7,857 bases of DNA from Candidatus Latescibacterota bacterium (lineage in GTDB: Bacteria; JAAXHH01; JABIQT01), in NCBI GenBank assembly GCA_018667995.1, contig JABIQT010000510.1, forward strand, positions 1 through 7,857, in the 5' to 3' direction. The translations under genes were made by a program, and so were the position numbers. The notes beneath the pieces are model-generated. The model ran no database searches. It worked only from the letters and a program-made list of their open reading frames with translations, and was not told the DNA's origin. This document shows, one piece after another, positions 2,939 through 7,857 of the stretch (the first letter of the stretch is position 1; each line of letters begins with the position of its first letter).

Positions 2939-3994
2939 TCATTTCTCAATTCTGGTCAGATTCCTATATCCGGTCGTTGCCTTCTCAAAGAATCCATCCT
3001 CTCCCTTAATGATAAATAGAGCGGAGAGGCCTTCTCGTTCAGCCAGTCGATACCCCTCTTGCGGACCAAGCACCATGAAAGCTGTGGCCAGGGCATCTGC
3101 CCGCATACAGGAGGAATCCAATACCGTAACCGATGCCAGGACGTGTCGGATGGGTTTCCCTGTCTTTGAGTCGACCTCATGCGAATACCTCTGATCATCT
3201 TTGTCAAAATAGTTACGGTAATCTCCCGACGTGGCGATCGCCTGATTGCTCAGGTTGATGATCTGTTGAATCTCCTGTTTATCTATCACAGGACGTTCAA
3301 TAGCAATTTTCCAGGGCACACCTCCCGTTTTTTGTCCTCTGCCCTTCATTTCTCCGCCTATATCCACAAGGTGGTCTGTGATTCCTATGGATTCCAGGTA
3401 GTCTGACAGAAGATCAACGGCAAAACCCTTGGCAATTCCAGACAGATCAAGATAGAGGTCAACGATATTTTTTCTTAGGGACGGTGGGGCCAGACGGAAT
3501 TGCAGATGATGTGATCCCACTTTCCCCAAAGTGGTGTTGATTTCTTCTTGGCTTGGGATCTCCCCCTTTCCGCCGGAAGGGCCAAATCCCCAAAGGTTTA
3601 CGAGAGGTCCTACCGTTACGTCAAATGCGCCTTCGGTCAGACTGTGAATGTTGAGCGCTTCCTCTACTACCAGAGCCGTTTCGGATGAAACTGGAAACCA
3701 GTCGGTCTTCTCGTACTGGTTAAAGCGAGAGAGTTCAGAGTCTGGAATATAGGTGGACATCTGAGCGTTGGTCTTTTCCAGAAGGTCTTCAATGGAGGCT
3801 CTTAATTCATTCTTGTGAATTGATTGGGGAAGCGAGGCGACGGTGACCTTGAAATAGGTCCCCATCGTGGAGCCCGATACCGTGAGGGGACCGTCAACAG
3901 TTTGGGGAGAGGAGGAGTTGCTGCAGTCAAAAAGAGTAAAACAGCAGAATGTAAATAATCCGACTGGTAACAACGATTTTAGAATGGGTGCCAT
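2939..3994 (-). CDS. apbE: FAD:protein FMN transferase (ApbE)
   Basis: ApbE moves FMN from FAD onto a Thr of a target protein as a covalent phosphoester, using Mg2+, on the outer face of the cytoplasmic membrane. Family landmarks in order: GSTMGTYFKV (41-50), MSTYIPDSELSRFN (79-92), FDVTVGPLVNLWGFG (124-138), DLSGIAKGFAVD (183-194), DIGGE (211-215), ATSGDYRNYF (254-263), SHEVDSKTG (271-279) and the metal-site SCMRADALATA (295-305). Its 351 residues are a normal length. The N-terminus has Lys, a hydrophobic stretch (8-22) and a Cys at 24 (LFDC), suggesting a lipoprotein, though Asp before the Cys departs from a standard lipobox. It is last in the rnf operon, 121 bases after the FNR gene, with only a weak ribosome binding site (AGGGA, 11 bases before ATG). 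The DxxSGAT sites in RnfD and RnfG of the same operon are its expected targets. Confidence 0.95.
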   Translation of the reverse strand: MAPILKSLLPVGLFTFCCFTLFDCSNSSSPQTVDGPLTVSGSTMGTYFKVTVASLPQSIHKNELRASIEDLLEKTNAQMSTYIPDSELSRFNQYEKTDWFPVSSETALVVEEALNIHSLTEGAFDVTVGPLVNLWGFGPSGGKGEIPSQEEINTTLGKVGSHHLQFRLAPPSLRKNIVDLYLDLSGIAKGFAVDLLSDYLESIGITDHLVDIGGEMKGRGQKTGGVPWKIAIERPVIDKQEIQQIINLSNQAIATSGDYRNYFDKDDQRYSHEVDSKTGKPIRHVLASVTVLDSSCMRADALATAFMVLGPQEGYRLAEREGLSALFIIKGEDGFFEKATTGYRNLTRIEK

Positions 3995-4115: not shown

Positions 4116-5057
4116 TTACTCATGACTGAGATTCTCCTCTTCCTTGAGCATAGTGATGACCTCGTCAGCGACGTCATCGGGAATAGTCCATTGGGGGTCA
4201 TCGTAGAACAAGGTTGCCCAGCGTCCCTTGTCGACCATCTCTTGTTTGAGTTTCTTCCAGGCATCCCAGGAACCGGCAAATTCAGTAAGTGCTTTTTCCA
4301 TGGATACCTCCAATCGAGAAAGACCGGATGCATAGACAAAGGTTTTGGGATCTTGAACAAGATTCCAGACCTCCTCCGCGTTATCCTTTAAGGTCTGCTC
4401 CACTTCCTCAGGCTCGTCGAAGTGGGGCTTGGGGCTTAGAGACTCAAACGCCTTAAAAGTCTCCTGATCGTAATACTGGCTGAGATCTCCGTTCTTTTCA
4501 TTCATGTAAAGCAGGTCCAGCCCGGTGCGCCCACCATAAAATAACCGTACCTGGCCCCTCCAAACCTTGCGCTCCTCATAGATGTGCTTCATGAATGCCC
4601 GGAAGGGCGCAATGCCCGTACCGACTCCGATCATCAACAGATTGCAGGTGTTGTCGCGGGGGGGCAGAAAGTGGCGACCGTAGGGGCCTGCGAGCTGAAT
4701 GAAATCTCCGGGCTGCTTATCGCACAAAAAGTTGGAAGCGACCCCCGGGAATCGCTCGCCGCTGAATTCATCGATGTAGAAGCAACGGCGGACACAGATT
4801 GAAATCTCGGTCATGTCCTGGTTCTCGCCCTGCCGCGCACTGGCAATTGAATAGAGCCGAAAATGATTCTCGTTGCCGTATGCGTGGGGACCCGGAACCA
4901 GAACTCCAATGCTTTGGCCTTCAATGTAGTGGAAAGTAGCATCCGCAACGTTCAAAACGATGTGGCGGACTTCATCGGTGTTTTCATCAGTGATCCGTTC
5001 CGACCTCGTGATGGTTGCCTGGTAGGGATGTTTGATATCGAACTCAGATGTTTTCAT
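4116..5057 (-). CDS. Plant-type ferredoxin-NAD(P)H oxidoreductase (FNR)
   Basis: A 313-residue soluble FAD enzyme of the plant-type FNR fold, passing electrons between NAD(P)H and ferredoxin. The FAD site is HFRLYSIAS (65-73). GVASNFLCDKQPGD (105-118) matches the SNFLC flavin-phosphate loop of chloroplast/cyanobacterial FNR and of the BoxA reductase. The nucleotide site is GVGTGIAPFRAF (144-155), followed by LFYGGRTGLDLLY and VYASGL (241-246). I chose ATG 5057 because AGGAG (5065-5069) stands 7 bases upstream; the frame is open farther, but that part (to 5249) is a shadow of the preceding gene. There is no transmembrane segment and no ferredoxin-type Cys cluster, so this is not NqrF although it holds the nqrF position. 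The usual C-terminal aromatic residue near the flavin may be Y285, leaving an acidic tail of 28 residues. The 2'-phosphate ligands of NADP enzymes are not obvious, so NADH use cannot be excluded. It overlaps the preceding small gene by 14 bases. Confidence 0.88.
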   Translation of the reverse strand: MKTSEFDIKHPYQATITRSERITDENTDEVRHIVLNVADATFHYIEGQSIGVLVPGPHAYGNENHFRLYSIASARQGENQDMTEISICVRRCFYIDEFSGERFPGVASNFLCDKQPGDFIQLAGPYGRHFLPPRDNTCNLLMIGVGTGIAPFRAFMKHIYEERKVWRGQVRLFYGGRTGLDLLYMNEKNGDLSQYYDQETFKAFESLSPKPHFDEPEEVEQTLKDNAEEVWNLVQDPKTFVYASGLSRLEVSMEKALTEFAGSWDAWKKLKQEMVDKGRWATLFYDDPQWTIPDDVADEVITMLKEEENLSHE

Positions 5058-5295
5058 TTTTCTTCTCCTGGTTGATTTCTTTGCTCTTTCCATCATCGGA
5101 AGCAAATAACGCGCGCTTGCTACACGATTGCCGATCCCGACACAGGCAAAACAAACCGCAACCTCCCACTTCTTCACGAGACGGGCCAAATTCGGAATGC
5201 CGGTTGGCTGTGGCACGAGCCAGGTGCTGTATTCCCACCCATCCGGCAAATGCTCCGAGGATGATTAATACTGAAACGGCGTACGTGACCATCAT
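5044..5295 (-). CDS. Small cysteine-rich single-pass membrane protein, possibly NqrM-like
   Basis: An 83-residue protein with one N-terminal transmembrane helix (about residues 4-22), a short basic linker, then a cysteine cluster C46-x3-C50-x-C52-x5-C58 within GGCGLFCLCRDRQSC, and a charged Lys/Glu tail. It starts one base after the rnfA stop, using the GGGAGG that ends rnfA (about 5301-5306) as ribosome binding site; ATG 5292 is an equally possible start. Its 3' end overlaps the FNR start by 14 bases, so it is surely part of the operon. NqrM (DUF539) of the Na+-NQR system has the same plan: one helix, then G-x-CG, a C-x-C pair and a last Cys. NqrM helps assemble the Fe centre held by NqrD and NqrE, which correspond to RnfE and RnfA just upstream. 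Cysteine spacing here is shorter than in the NqrM I know, so homology is suspected, not shown. A role as a small electron carrier or anchor for the FNR is an alternative. Confidence 0.75.
   Translation of the reverse strand: MMVTYAVSVLIILGAFAGWVGIQHLARATANRHSEFGPSREEVGGCGLFCLCRDRQSCSKRALFASDDGKSKEINQEKKNENI
5065..5069 (-). promoter_or_regulatory. Ribosome binding site that fixes the FNR start
   Basis: AGGAG on the - strand, seven bases before ATG 5057. It lies inside the 3' end of the preceding small gene and is the reason to start the FNR here rather than at the farther in-frame ATG 5249. Confidence 0.8.
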
Positions 5296-5296
5296 C

Positions 5297-5878
5297 CTAT
5301 CCTCCCAATCCTGCAAATCCCATAAAAGTCAGAGACAATAGACCGGCAATCACTAAACTGAGAGCCGCCCCCATGCTCACATCTGGAACGTCCGCCAGCT
5401 CGAGCTTCTCTCTGAGTCCTGCCATCAGCATCAAAGCCAGGGTAAAACCGGCGCCGGCGCCCAGACTGAACGCCAGACACTGGAAAAAATCATAGTCGCG
5501 TTGGGTTTGAAACAGTGCCACGCCCAGGATAGCGCAGTTAGTAGTGATCAAAGGCAGGAAGATACCCAGGGTTCGAAAGAGGGCAGGACTCCATTTTTTT
5601 ATGGCCATCTCGACTAACTGTACGGCCGAAGCGATCACAGCGATGTAACAGATCAGGCGTAGAAATTCCAGGTGGTAGCGGATCAAAAGGAAATTGATGG
5701 CGTAAGCGCAAGTCGAACTCACCAGCATGACAAAGATGACTGCCAGACCCATATTCCAGGCTGTCTTGATCTTTCCGGAAACGCCCAGAAAAGGACACAA
5801 TCCAAGAAACATCGCCAAAACAAAGTTGTTGATGATGAAGGCATTTAAGAAAATGAAACTCAGAGAATCAGGCTGCAT
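5297..5878 (-). CDS. rnfA: Rnf complex membrane subunit RnfA
   Basis: An integral membrane subunit of the Rnf ferredoxin:NAD+ oxidoreductase, homologous to NqrE. The 193-residue length and its six predicted hydrophobic segments are normal. The two conserved half-helix cysteines are present: FLGLCPFLG (C28) and TTNCAILG (C115). With the matching pair in RnfE they hold the buried iron centre that carries electrons across the membrane. LELADVPD near 153-160 is also typical of RnfA and separates it from RnfE/NqrD. The start is ATG 5878, which overlaps the end of rnfE by 11 bases and has GGAGG and AAAGGA upstream. The next gene begins one base after the TAG. In many operons ending C-D-G-E-A, rnfB follows rnfA; here a small Cys protein and an FNR follow instead. 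Confidence 0.95.
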
Positions 5879-6527
5879 TCGTCCTTTCCTCCATTGAGCT
5901 TTCAGTCACTTTCAGTCGTTTTCGAACCACAGCAAACAGGAATAACCAGAAAGCCAAAACAAAGAAGCCTCCTGGAGGTAATACAAATACGGCCCACGGC
6001 TGAAAATCGGGTCCGAACAGGGATAATCCAAAAAGACTGCCGCTGCCCAGCACCTCTCGCACAGCACCTAGGCACAGCAGAGCAAAGGTAAAGCCCAGAC
6101 CCATTCCCAGGGCATTGACGAAGGCGCTCACCACTGGATTCTTCGACGCATAAGCCTCCGCCCGGCCAAGGATGATGCAGTTGACCACGATGAGCTGAAT
6201 GAATGCGCCCAATGCCTTATAGAGATCCAGACTGACGGCCTGGATGGCATAGTCGACGATGGTCACAAACGTGGCGATGATAATGATATAGGAGGCAATC
6301 CGGACCTGCCTCGGGATTAGGTTGCGCAATACCGAGACCAGAACACCCGAGCATAGGAGGACAAATGTAGTCGCCAAACCCATGCTAAGGGCATTCATGG
6401 CCGTATTGGTTACCGCCAATACCGGACAAAGACCGAGTAGCATGACAAACACGGGGTTCTCCCTCCATAAGCCTTGTATGAAGGTGTCCCAGCTAAGCGC
6501 CTCGGGGGTTCGCGGGTCTCTGGTCAT
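5868..6527 (-). CDS. rnfE: Rnf complex membrane subunit RnfE
   Basis: An integral membrane subunit of Rnf, homologous to NqrD and the inverted-topology partner of RnfA. Its 219 residues show six hydrophobic segments. Family landmarks: [17 protein letters not shown] with C34, [18 protein letters not shown] (72-89), [19 protein letters not shown] with C117, and [11 protein letters not shown] (140-150). C34 and C117 are the expected iron-centre ligands. I prefer ATG 6527, whose first base is shared with the last base of the rnfG stop (TGATG); the TTG one codon upstream would add one residue. AGGA lies upstream within rnfG. The tight overlap suggests coupled translation of rnfG, rnfE and rnfA. 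Confidence 0.95.
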
Positions 6528-7237
6528 CAATGCAATCCTGTCGTTTTAGAACTCATTTTCTTCCTGTCTAAGGACGCTTTGTTCTTCACCAGCCAAGGAA
6601 GCATTTGGCTGGTGCTCCCACGCAATGCGTTGCCGACGGCCTTGGAAGTAATGGTCGCTCCCGAGATGCCGTCAACCTGCCACGGGTGGACTTTTTTTCC
6701 ATGTTTGACCGTGACGATTTCGTTCCGCATGGCCGTTCTGTCTTCATTAAGACTGGCATCCAGGCAATCGAAATTAGCAAGAAACCCCAGGTCGGTTTCC
6801 ACTCTGTCTCCAAGACCCGGGGTTTCAGTGCTCTGCAAAACCGTCACGCCGATAATGCATTCCTTTTCCAGGGAATAACCGTAGAGAATTCTGACGATGT
6901 CCTGATACCCCCGTGCGGATCCTTCCATGGCCACCCCGATCACTTCACCGGCCTCATTATATCCTGCATAAACATTGGCCCTGGCAAAATCCTCGTCGGG
7001 CAACGCCACTAAACCGGACGAATCGAGAAGATAGTTCGAACGGACGGTGGCATCGGAAAGCACAGCAAAGACCGCCTGCTCCAGCGCTTCTTGTTTATTC
7101 TGGGTTATCCTCGGTTCGGTTACATTGAAGGTGAGAACCACCAGAAACCCGGACATCATGGCAATGAGGCAGAGCGTTATGATCAGTCGGCTACTGGCCG
7201 GCATAGGCTGGGGGAGGGATGACGTGTCCTGGTTCAT
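6527..7237 (-). CDS. rnfG: Rnf complex FMN-carrying subunit RnfG
   Basis: RnfG, homologous to NqrC, carries a covalent FMN in a domain held outside the membrane by one N-terminal helix (about residues 17-38). Seen here: the helix, then the FMN-binding domain with [14 protein letters not shown] (109-122), [14 protein letters not shown] (136-149) and [16 protein letters not shown] (186-201). The DGISGAT heptad (189-195) fits the flavinylation motif DxxSGAT, so T195 is the predicted FMN attachment site. The 236 residues are complete. ATG 7237 overlaps the rnfD stop in the four-base ATGA pattern. The TETPGLG and SGATIT motifs, together with the RnfD-type neighbour, support RnfG over NqrC. The modifying enzyme, ApbE, is encoded at the end of the same operon. 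Confidence 0.95.
6653..6673 (-). other. Predicted covalent-FMN site of RnfG
   Basis: The seven codons encode DGISGAT, followed by Ile-Thr. This is the classic RnfG/NqrC flavinylation motif, with the Thr at 195 as the acceptor. Confidence 0.88.
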
Positions 7238-7857
7238 GCCACTCCTTTCACTTTTCCGGTTCCATAAATGCGCGGCTGGGTCACGGCGCTGATGAGCGGC
7301 GAAAAGGCATTGCCAAGCAGAATTGCATACATGACACCCTCGGTAAGGCCTCCGTAAAGACGAATGATGACTGTGACTAAACCAATGAGTGCGCCATACA
7401 CCCAGATGCCTAGTGGAGTAACCGGGGAGGCCACCATGTCGGTGGCCATAAAGACCGCACCCAGCATCAAGCCGCCCGAACAGAGGGTAAACCAGGGGGT
7501 CGGATAGACTTGCGAATCAATCAGAAAAAACACACCAGACACAATGAAGGCCGTGAGCAGAATACTGAAGGTGATGCGCCAGTCCATCATGTTTCGGAAA
7601 ATCAGGTAAATACCGCAAATGAGAATCAGCAGCGCTGATGTCTCTCCGGCCGACCCCGCCGTAGTTCCGAGAAGGAGCTGAATGGAATCGGTGGAGATAT
7701 TCTCGAACTTCATCAAAGCAAGCGGAGTCGCGCCCGAAAAGCCATCGGCTGCGCCTCTGGCCAGCCATTCGGTCAACGGCGGCGGTTTCAAAAAAGGGAG
7801 CGTCAGAGTCGATGGAATGAATTCCGTAAACCTCCCCATGGCGTGGGAGGGGACCCA
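7234..7857 (-). CDS. rnfD: Rnf complex membrane subunit RnfD (5' part outside the window)
   Basis: RnfD, homologous to NqrB, is a polytopic membrane subunit with a covalent FMN, thought to form part of the ion and electron path. The frame is open to the window edge with no stop upstream of ATG 7839, so that Met is internal and the N-terminal part, perhaps 120-150 residues, is missing. Numbering from it, DGFSGATPL (32-40) is the flavinylation motif, with T38 as the predicted FMN site. AGSAGETSALLILICGIYLI, GGLMLGAVFMATDMVASPVT and YGGLTEGVMYAILLGNAFSPLI follow; the SPVT form and the short C-terminus are those of RnfD rather than NqrB. Four to five hydrophobic segments are visible. In operons of this order rnfC would be expected just beyond the right edge. 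Confidence 0.93.
   Translation of the reverse strand, partial: WVPSHAMGRFTEFIPSTLTLPFLKPPPLTEWLARGAADGFSGATPLALMKFENISTDSIQLLLGTTAGSAGETSALLILICGIYLIFRNMMDWRITFSILLTAFIVSGVFFLIDSQVYPTPWFTLCSGGLMLGAVFMATDMVASPVTPLGIWVYGALIGLVTVIIRLYGGLTEGVMYAILLGNAFSPLISAVTQPRIYGTGKVKGVA
7726..7746 (-). other. Predicted covalent-FMN site of RnfD
   Basis: The seven codons encode DGFSGAT, matching the ApbE recognition motif DxxSGAT. The last Thr is the expected phosphoester-FMN residue by analogy with characterised RnfD/NqrB. Confidence 0.85.

Follow-up and report, generated by a model that had tools for sequence, protein, structure and literature searches.

The window analysed here is the whole of contig C1013, a stretch of 7857 bases belonging to a draft genome of 6.06 Mb. 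The main features identified on its minus strand, in the order in which they are read, are as follows:

7234-7857, minus strand: 3' part of rnfD (PF03116, E 7e-57), the gene being cut by the window edge
6527-7237, minus strand: rnfG (FMN_bind), with an SGATIT motif
5868-6530, minus strand: rnfE (TIGR01948, 241.6 bits against a cut-off of 213.4)
5297-5878, minus strand: rnfA (TIGR01943, 234.1 bits against a cut-off of 229.3)
5044-5295, minus strand: gene for a small protein containing a single predicted membrane helix and a Cys cluster, C-x3-C-x-C-x5-C
4116-5057, minus strand: gene for the plant-type FNR (313 aa from the ATG at 5057), a member of a distinct clade
4119-4202, minus strand: C-terminal tail of the FNR, 28 aa after Tyr285, pLDDT <50
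2939-3994, minus strand: apbE, FAD:protein FMN transferase (PF02424, E 7e-89)

The genes from rnfD to that of the FNR were found to overlap or abut one another, the small gene starting with an ATG (5295) directly after the stop of rnfA (5297) and having its own stop (5044) within the FNR gene. Examination of the minus-strand ORFs thereby confirmed the gapless run of rnfD-rnfG-rnfE-rnfA, small Cys membrane protein and FNR that had been described in the initial annotation. The start of the FNR is likely to be the ATG at 5057 and not the TTG of a longer ORF starting at 5249. The rnfG gene scored 96.8 bits with the rnfG model, just below the cut-off of 102. The next gene after that of the FNR on this strand is apbE, whose product is likely to flavinylate RnfG and RnfD. 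On the plus strand, a gene for an esterase of the beta-lactamase fold (1771-2919) is convergent with apbE, its top NCBIfam match being the methyl acetate hydrolase AcmB (253 bits, below the cut-off of 550), and a cut gene resembling those of Met gamma-lyase/cystathionine gamma-synthase is found at positions 9-926.

A search for RnfB located rnfB, a PFOR gene (1641 aa), rnfC and the beginning of rnfD, in that order, on contig C237 of the same genome, which ends at that point. Comparison with relatives indicated that approximately 22 rnfD codons are missing between the ends of C237 and of the window contig. We infer that the two contigs join within rnfD and that the full order of the cluster is rnfB-PFOR-rnfCDGEA-small-FNR; the gene order so joined matches that of the relatives. 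No other genes of the RnfA/E type were found in the genome. All six Rnf subunits were identified, with D, G, E and A encoded in the window and B and C on C237. The flavinylation (FMN-attachment) motifs of RnfD (SGATP) and RnfG (SGATIT) are present in their translations, as are the Cys motifs of the intramembrane cluster in RnfA/RnfE (LCPFLG/NCAILG and LCPVLA/NCIILG). RnfC (Complex1_51K, E 8e-47, with GLGGAAFP) possesses the NADH/FMN domain and RnfB retains its Fe-S motifs. The Rnf complex is therefore complete as judged from its sequences, and the FNR comes on top of it.

These genes bear on the position of the FNR within the operon. It had been suggested that the FNR occupies the place where rnfB or nqrF might stand, which is not the case because rnfB and rnfC are both present on C237; replacement of RnfB by the FNR can be ruled out on the same ground. 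The accompanying expectation that rnfB may lie upstream of rnfC, beyond the window, proved correct. The complex was also not assignable to Na+-NQR, as RnfB and RnfC are present and the FNR has neither a helix nor a ferredoxin domain, while the rnfE and rnfA models score above the nqrD and nqrE models. The PFOR gene between rnfB and rnfC lies outside the window and was invisible to the initial annotation.

The PFOR of C237 consists of POR_N, PFOR_II, POR, Fer4 and TPP domains and matches the solved PFOR 6cin (phmmer E 8e-73), in keeping with its assignment. Its score with the TIGR02176 equivalog is under the cut-off (383 against 911), and pyruvate is therefore only its presumed substrate. Its C-terminus is a ferredoxin domain with one cluster, resembling ferredoxin I of Desulfovibrio africanus, and such a C-terminal domain, with CxxCxxC...C, was identified in every full-length PFOR of these clusters, among which no separate ferredoxin gene was seen. 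An example of the long form (approximately 1640 aa) with this domain is encoded at L061:7165-12090. Shorter PFOR relatives without the tail also adjoin rnfC in other genomes.

The FNR was found to consist of FAD- and NAD-binding domains only, without a helix, in agreement with its earlier description as lacking a ferredoxin domain and a membrane anchor. It matches cyanobacterial FNR with a phmmer E of 4e-45, and its AlphaFold2 model (pLDDT 83) aligns with plant and Anabaena FNR with a Z of 33 over residues 6-285, the nearest structures being NADP-dependent FNRs. Its identity as a plant-type FNR is far beyond chance, and it has the FAD and NAD(P) domains and the RxYS and GTGxAP motifs of the superfamily fold. 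Anabaena PetH (1GJR) and spinach FNR (1FNB) share its whole fold (rmsd approximately 2.2 A over 272-274 residues, at 30-34% identity), its RLYS and GTGIAPFR motifs and the terminal Tyr, whereas the 2'-phosphate site, the Cys of the CGLKGME loop and the position of the C-terminal catalytic Glu are not kept in the window protein. With the PetH equivalog it scored 197 bits against a cut-off of 600. It is also not a benzoyl-CoA epoxidase reductase (BoxA), as it scored 161.6 bits against a cut-off of 459.2 and has no N-terminal ferredoxin domain.

Tyr285 of the FNR aligns with the terminal Tyr of the plant and Anabaena enzymes, and the window protein alone among these runs 28 poorly predicted residues further, a detail that had been missed in the initial annotation. 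This tail (IPDDVADEVITMLKEEENLSHE, window positions 4119-4202) matches the end of separate ORFs of 61-64 aa situated 3' of the FNR gene in two Opitutae, an Opitutaceae MAG (L066:3775-3960) and Pelagicoccus (L068:11135-11329), with the motif PDDVxDE...EExxxHE being common to them. As this motif closes separate short ORFs in the two Opitutae, the FNR of the window may be a fusion with that small conserved protein.

Eighty named loci were obtained when 84,980 species genomes were scanned on the basis of an alignment, and these loci were annotated against the proteins of the window and of C237. In a maximum-likelihood tree, 62 FNRs including that of the window formed one clade (support 100/100, stem 0.6). 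A clade FNR adjoins rnfA in 47 of the 62 cases, and these belong to nine named phyla in addition to that of the window; the other 15 do not adjoin it, some of them lying at contig ends. The order [rnfB]-PFOR-rnfC-D-G-E-A-small-FNR was identified in Verrucomicrobiota, Kiritimatiellota, Pseudomonadota (Chromatiaceae among others), Hydrogenedentota, Acidobacteriota, Calditrichota, Myxococcota and Planctomycetota, being read from partial contigs in some phyla, while in clusters of Bacteroidota rnfB is placed after the FNR. The neighbourhood is thus not unique to this genome and FNRs of this subtype lie mostly beside rnf, which upholds the view of the initial annotation that the FNR is part of an rnf operon and extends it to a linkage conserved over about ten phyla.

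Where the clade FNR is detached from rnf, 12 of 13 genomes were found to hold the PFOR elsewhere (52-63% identity), in most of these 12 within an rnfB-PFOR-rnfCDGEA cluster. Among 384 broadly sampled genomes, a PFOR of at least 60% identity and a clade FNR occurred in the same four, a coincidence to be expected by chance about once in 10^9, this figure being uncorrected for kinship and two of the four sharing a family. Divergent PFORs with the ferredoxin tail (33-47% identity; G303, G132 and G203) were identified in genomes in which the clade FNR was not found. The ferredoxin tail of PFOR is therefore not strictly tied to the clade FNR; by gene content, the FNR is likewise not obligatory for PFOR-rnf clusters, and it appears to be a later addition to a PFOR-rnf arrangement, since such divergent clusters exist without it. 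No conserved second neighbourhood of the detached FNRs was found, with the exception of acs in two tubeworm endosymbionts. In these vestimentiferan endosymbionts (L087 and L089), the clade FNR gene lies directly after a gene reading as that of an acetyl-CoA synthetase, together with an acetate-permease-like gene and away from the PFOR-rnf cluster.

Anabaena FNR recognises the 2'-phosphate AMP half of NADP+ by means of Ser223, Arg224, Arg233 and Tyr235 (PMC8944804). In the alignment of the clade, the column of Ser223 holds Ser in 54 of 62 members, that of Arg224 mostly Pro and Arg in none (0/62), that of Arg233 Arg in a single member (1/62) and that of Tyr235 Tyr in none (0/62). The Cys of the catalytic CGLKGME loop is likewise present in 0/62, with Ala, Ser or Gly in its stead. 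Among outgroup FNRs (n=23), by comparison, the NADP pocket residues and the loop Cys are held by 22-23 of the 23. The FAD motifs and the pyrophosphate loop (GTGIAP) are intact in all 62 clade members. The residues of the clade hence differ from those of the NADP+-specific plastidic/cyanobacterial FNR (PetH): the alignment indicates that the classical 2'-phosphate site is lost across the clade while a nucleotide site is retained, and the nucleotide is therefore probably not bound in the classical NADP manner. NAD(H) would be the simplest choice and is somewhat more likely than NADP(H), although the SPRP motif could hold the 2'-phosphate in a new way and so render NADP(H) usable. The clade looks to be a previously unremarked type of FNR. 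An FNR with canonical NADP motifs (partial in L050) is encoded directly before an SthA-type soluble transhydrogenase-like gene in three loci of the Lambdaproteobacteria type (L048, L049 and L050).

The small protein follows rnfA in 43 of the 47 FNR-linked clusters. It was also identified after rnfA in PFOR-rnf clusters where the clade FNR was not found (genomes G256 and G120; loci L194 and L198), and its distribution therefore ties it to Rnf and not to the FNR. It is probably an accessory of Rnf, such as a cluster-maturation factor, and not an anchor for the FNR. NqrM (DUF539), the Fe-S maturation factor of Nqr, is short, has a single helix at its N-terminus and bears a Cys cluster; the small protein shares this layout, and both are encoded beside Rnf/Nqr membrane subunits. 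Unlike NqrM, the small protein gave no PF04400 match in the eight family members tested, and no Pfam match was found for it. A genome search with PF04400 yielded no match anywhere, not even in the controls, and was uninformative. An NqrM-like role would be a guess by analogy.

As to how the cluster came into this genome, searches of 15 genomes of the same order found no clade FNR, PFOR or rnfB in any of them, and the FNR, RnfA and PFOR are most closely related to those of an Opitutales MAG (75-87% identity). The absence from the 15 genomes points to a likely horizontal gain of the cluster, loss in the sister lineages being possible instead. As a binning control, the Met gamma-lyase-like gene of the window contig was found to be 64-67% identical to genes of ten genomes of the same order; the contig therefore fits its genome, and misbinning is disfavoured.

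We propose that the window covers the distal half of a conserved cluster acting as an electron junction with two exits, rnfB-PFOR-rnfC-D-G-E-A-small-FNR, a reading that we consider slightly more probable than not. The PFOR, whose make-up is seen in its sequence, would interconvert pyruvate and CoA with acetyl-CoA and CO2, and would exchange low-potential electrons with the ferredoxin domain fused to its own C-terminus. This tail, or a free ferredoxin, would deliver electrons to RnfB or to the FNR. At one exit, electrons would pass from RnfB through Rnf to NAD+ with the pumping of ions or, in reverse, NADH and the ion gradient would supply reduced ferredoxin for pyruvate synthesis; at the other, the soluble FNR would pass electrons to a nicotinamide nucleotide with no pumping. 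PFOR and FNR would then represent a split counterpart of the fused eukaryotic PNO, situated inside an rnf operon. The sequences are compatible with electron flow in either direction. A point against this reading is that an NAD(H)-using FNR, if unregulated, would short-circuit Rnf. The further proposal of a new functional class is a tentative one that we regard as rather unlikely: the FNR would take electrons from the PFOR-tethered ferredoxin domain, the pair acting as a two-gene pyruvate:NAD+ oxidoreductase tied to Rnf for a switch between pumping and non-pumping modes, possibly in a membrane assembly of PFOR, FNR and Rnf.

The initial annotation had proposed that Rnf (with NADH) and the FNR (with NADPH) share a ferredoxin pool and act as an ion-gradient-coupled transhydrogenase. 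This is consistent with the intact fold and GTGIAP loop in all clade members, with the NADP-dependent FNRs as nearest structures and with the presence of a complete Rnf. However, its step from NADH to NADPH is made doubtful by the clade-wide loss of the 2'-phosphate-binding residues and by the membrane transhydrogenase PntB, which is already present in 11 of 12 clade-FNR genomes tested (that of the window included), and the consistent partner PFOR is not needed by it; we regard it as a possible but rather doubtful explanation. The FNR may also be envisaged as a diaphorase, or as a valve against oxidative stress, through which ferredoxin is drained and over-reduction of PFOR and Rnf is prevented in aerobic or microaerobic hosts. 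Many carriers, for example Pelagicoccus and Flavobacteriaceae, are presumably aerobic or facultative organisms, but no oxygen-response genes are found in the cluster and carriers also include groups of anaerobic lifestyle such as the purple sulfur bacteria, which leaves this valve improbable.

Direct docking of the FNR on Rnf was raised in the initial annotation as a more radical possibility. In such a model the FNR would feed in electrons from NAD(P)H, with the small Cys protein as anchor and Fe-S relay, the two being in effect a split NqrF. The overlap of the rnfA, small protein and FNR genes and the frequency of the small protein after rnfA would accord with it, as would the view that NqrF arose when a gene of the FNR family took over from RnfB (PMC12174285). 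Against this, the complex includes both RnfB and RnfC, the FNR lacks an anchor, and in about a dozen genomes its gene lies away from rnf; the small protein after rnfA where no clade FNR was found likewise weakens the notion of a split NqrF composed of these two products. Such docking is accordingly disfavoured, being the least supported when set against the two-exit and transhydrogenase readings, and we consider it highly improbable. That the FNR is a passenger, an unrelated gene carried along with the rnf operon, might be argued from the unlinked members of the clade, but linkage conserved over some ten phyla and co-occurrence with PFOR even in the unlinked state make this an exceedingly unlikely explanation.

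In most discussions, Rnf figures as a ferredoxin:NAD+ pump that draws on a pool of diffusible ferredoxin. In the two-exit reading, the cluster would fix one source of electrons (a PFOR with its own ferredoxin) together with two exits (Rnf and a remodelled FNR). Many of the carrier phyla are not those of the classical Rnf anaerobes, and the reading offers a testable model for how Rnf serves bacteria of facultative, phototrophic and symbiotic lifestyles, whether pyruvate is oxidised or, with Rnf running in reverse, synthesised.

Among known systems, eukaryotic PNO is a PFOR joined to an FNR-superfamily reductase in one fused chain by a flavodoxin-like linker, a coupling akin to that proposed for the cluster. 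The cluster differs from PNO in that its PFOR and reductase are encoded by separate genes, in that the putative link is a [4Fe-4S] ferredoxin domain, and in the presence of Rnf.

The placement of a PFOR between rnfB and rnfC is already published and is not new here: in a 2014 account of the genome of the Solemya velum symbiont, a PFOR is described between rnfB2 and rnfC2 and pyruvate is suggested as an electron donor to Rnf (PMC4287430). The rnf2 cluster of this symbiont has the same order, rnfB-PFOR-rnfCDGEA, while no mention of an FNR, a small Cys protein or a cross-phylum distribution was found there (PMC4287430). No description of an FNR in rnf clusters was found in the openly accessible literature searched.

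NqrF is, according to a 2025 review, the product of an FNR-family gene that replaced RnfB at the origin of Nqr (PMC12174285). Like the FNR of the window, it is an FNR-family flavodomain linked to a complex of the Rnf/Nqr type, but it takes the place of RnfB and has in addition a [2Fe-2S] domain and a membrane helix (PMC12174285), whereas the FNR of the window has neither of these elements and RnfB is present beside it. With the clade described here, an FNR-family enzyme would have been taken into the Rnf/Nqr family for a second time and independently, a point relevant to the origin of NqrF.
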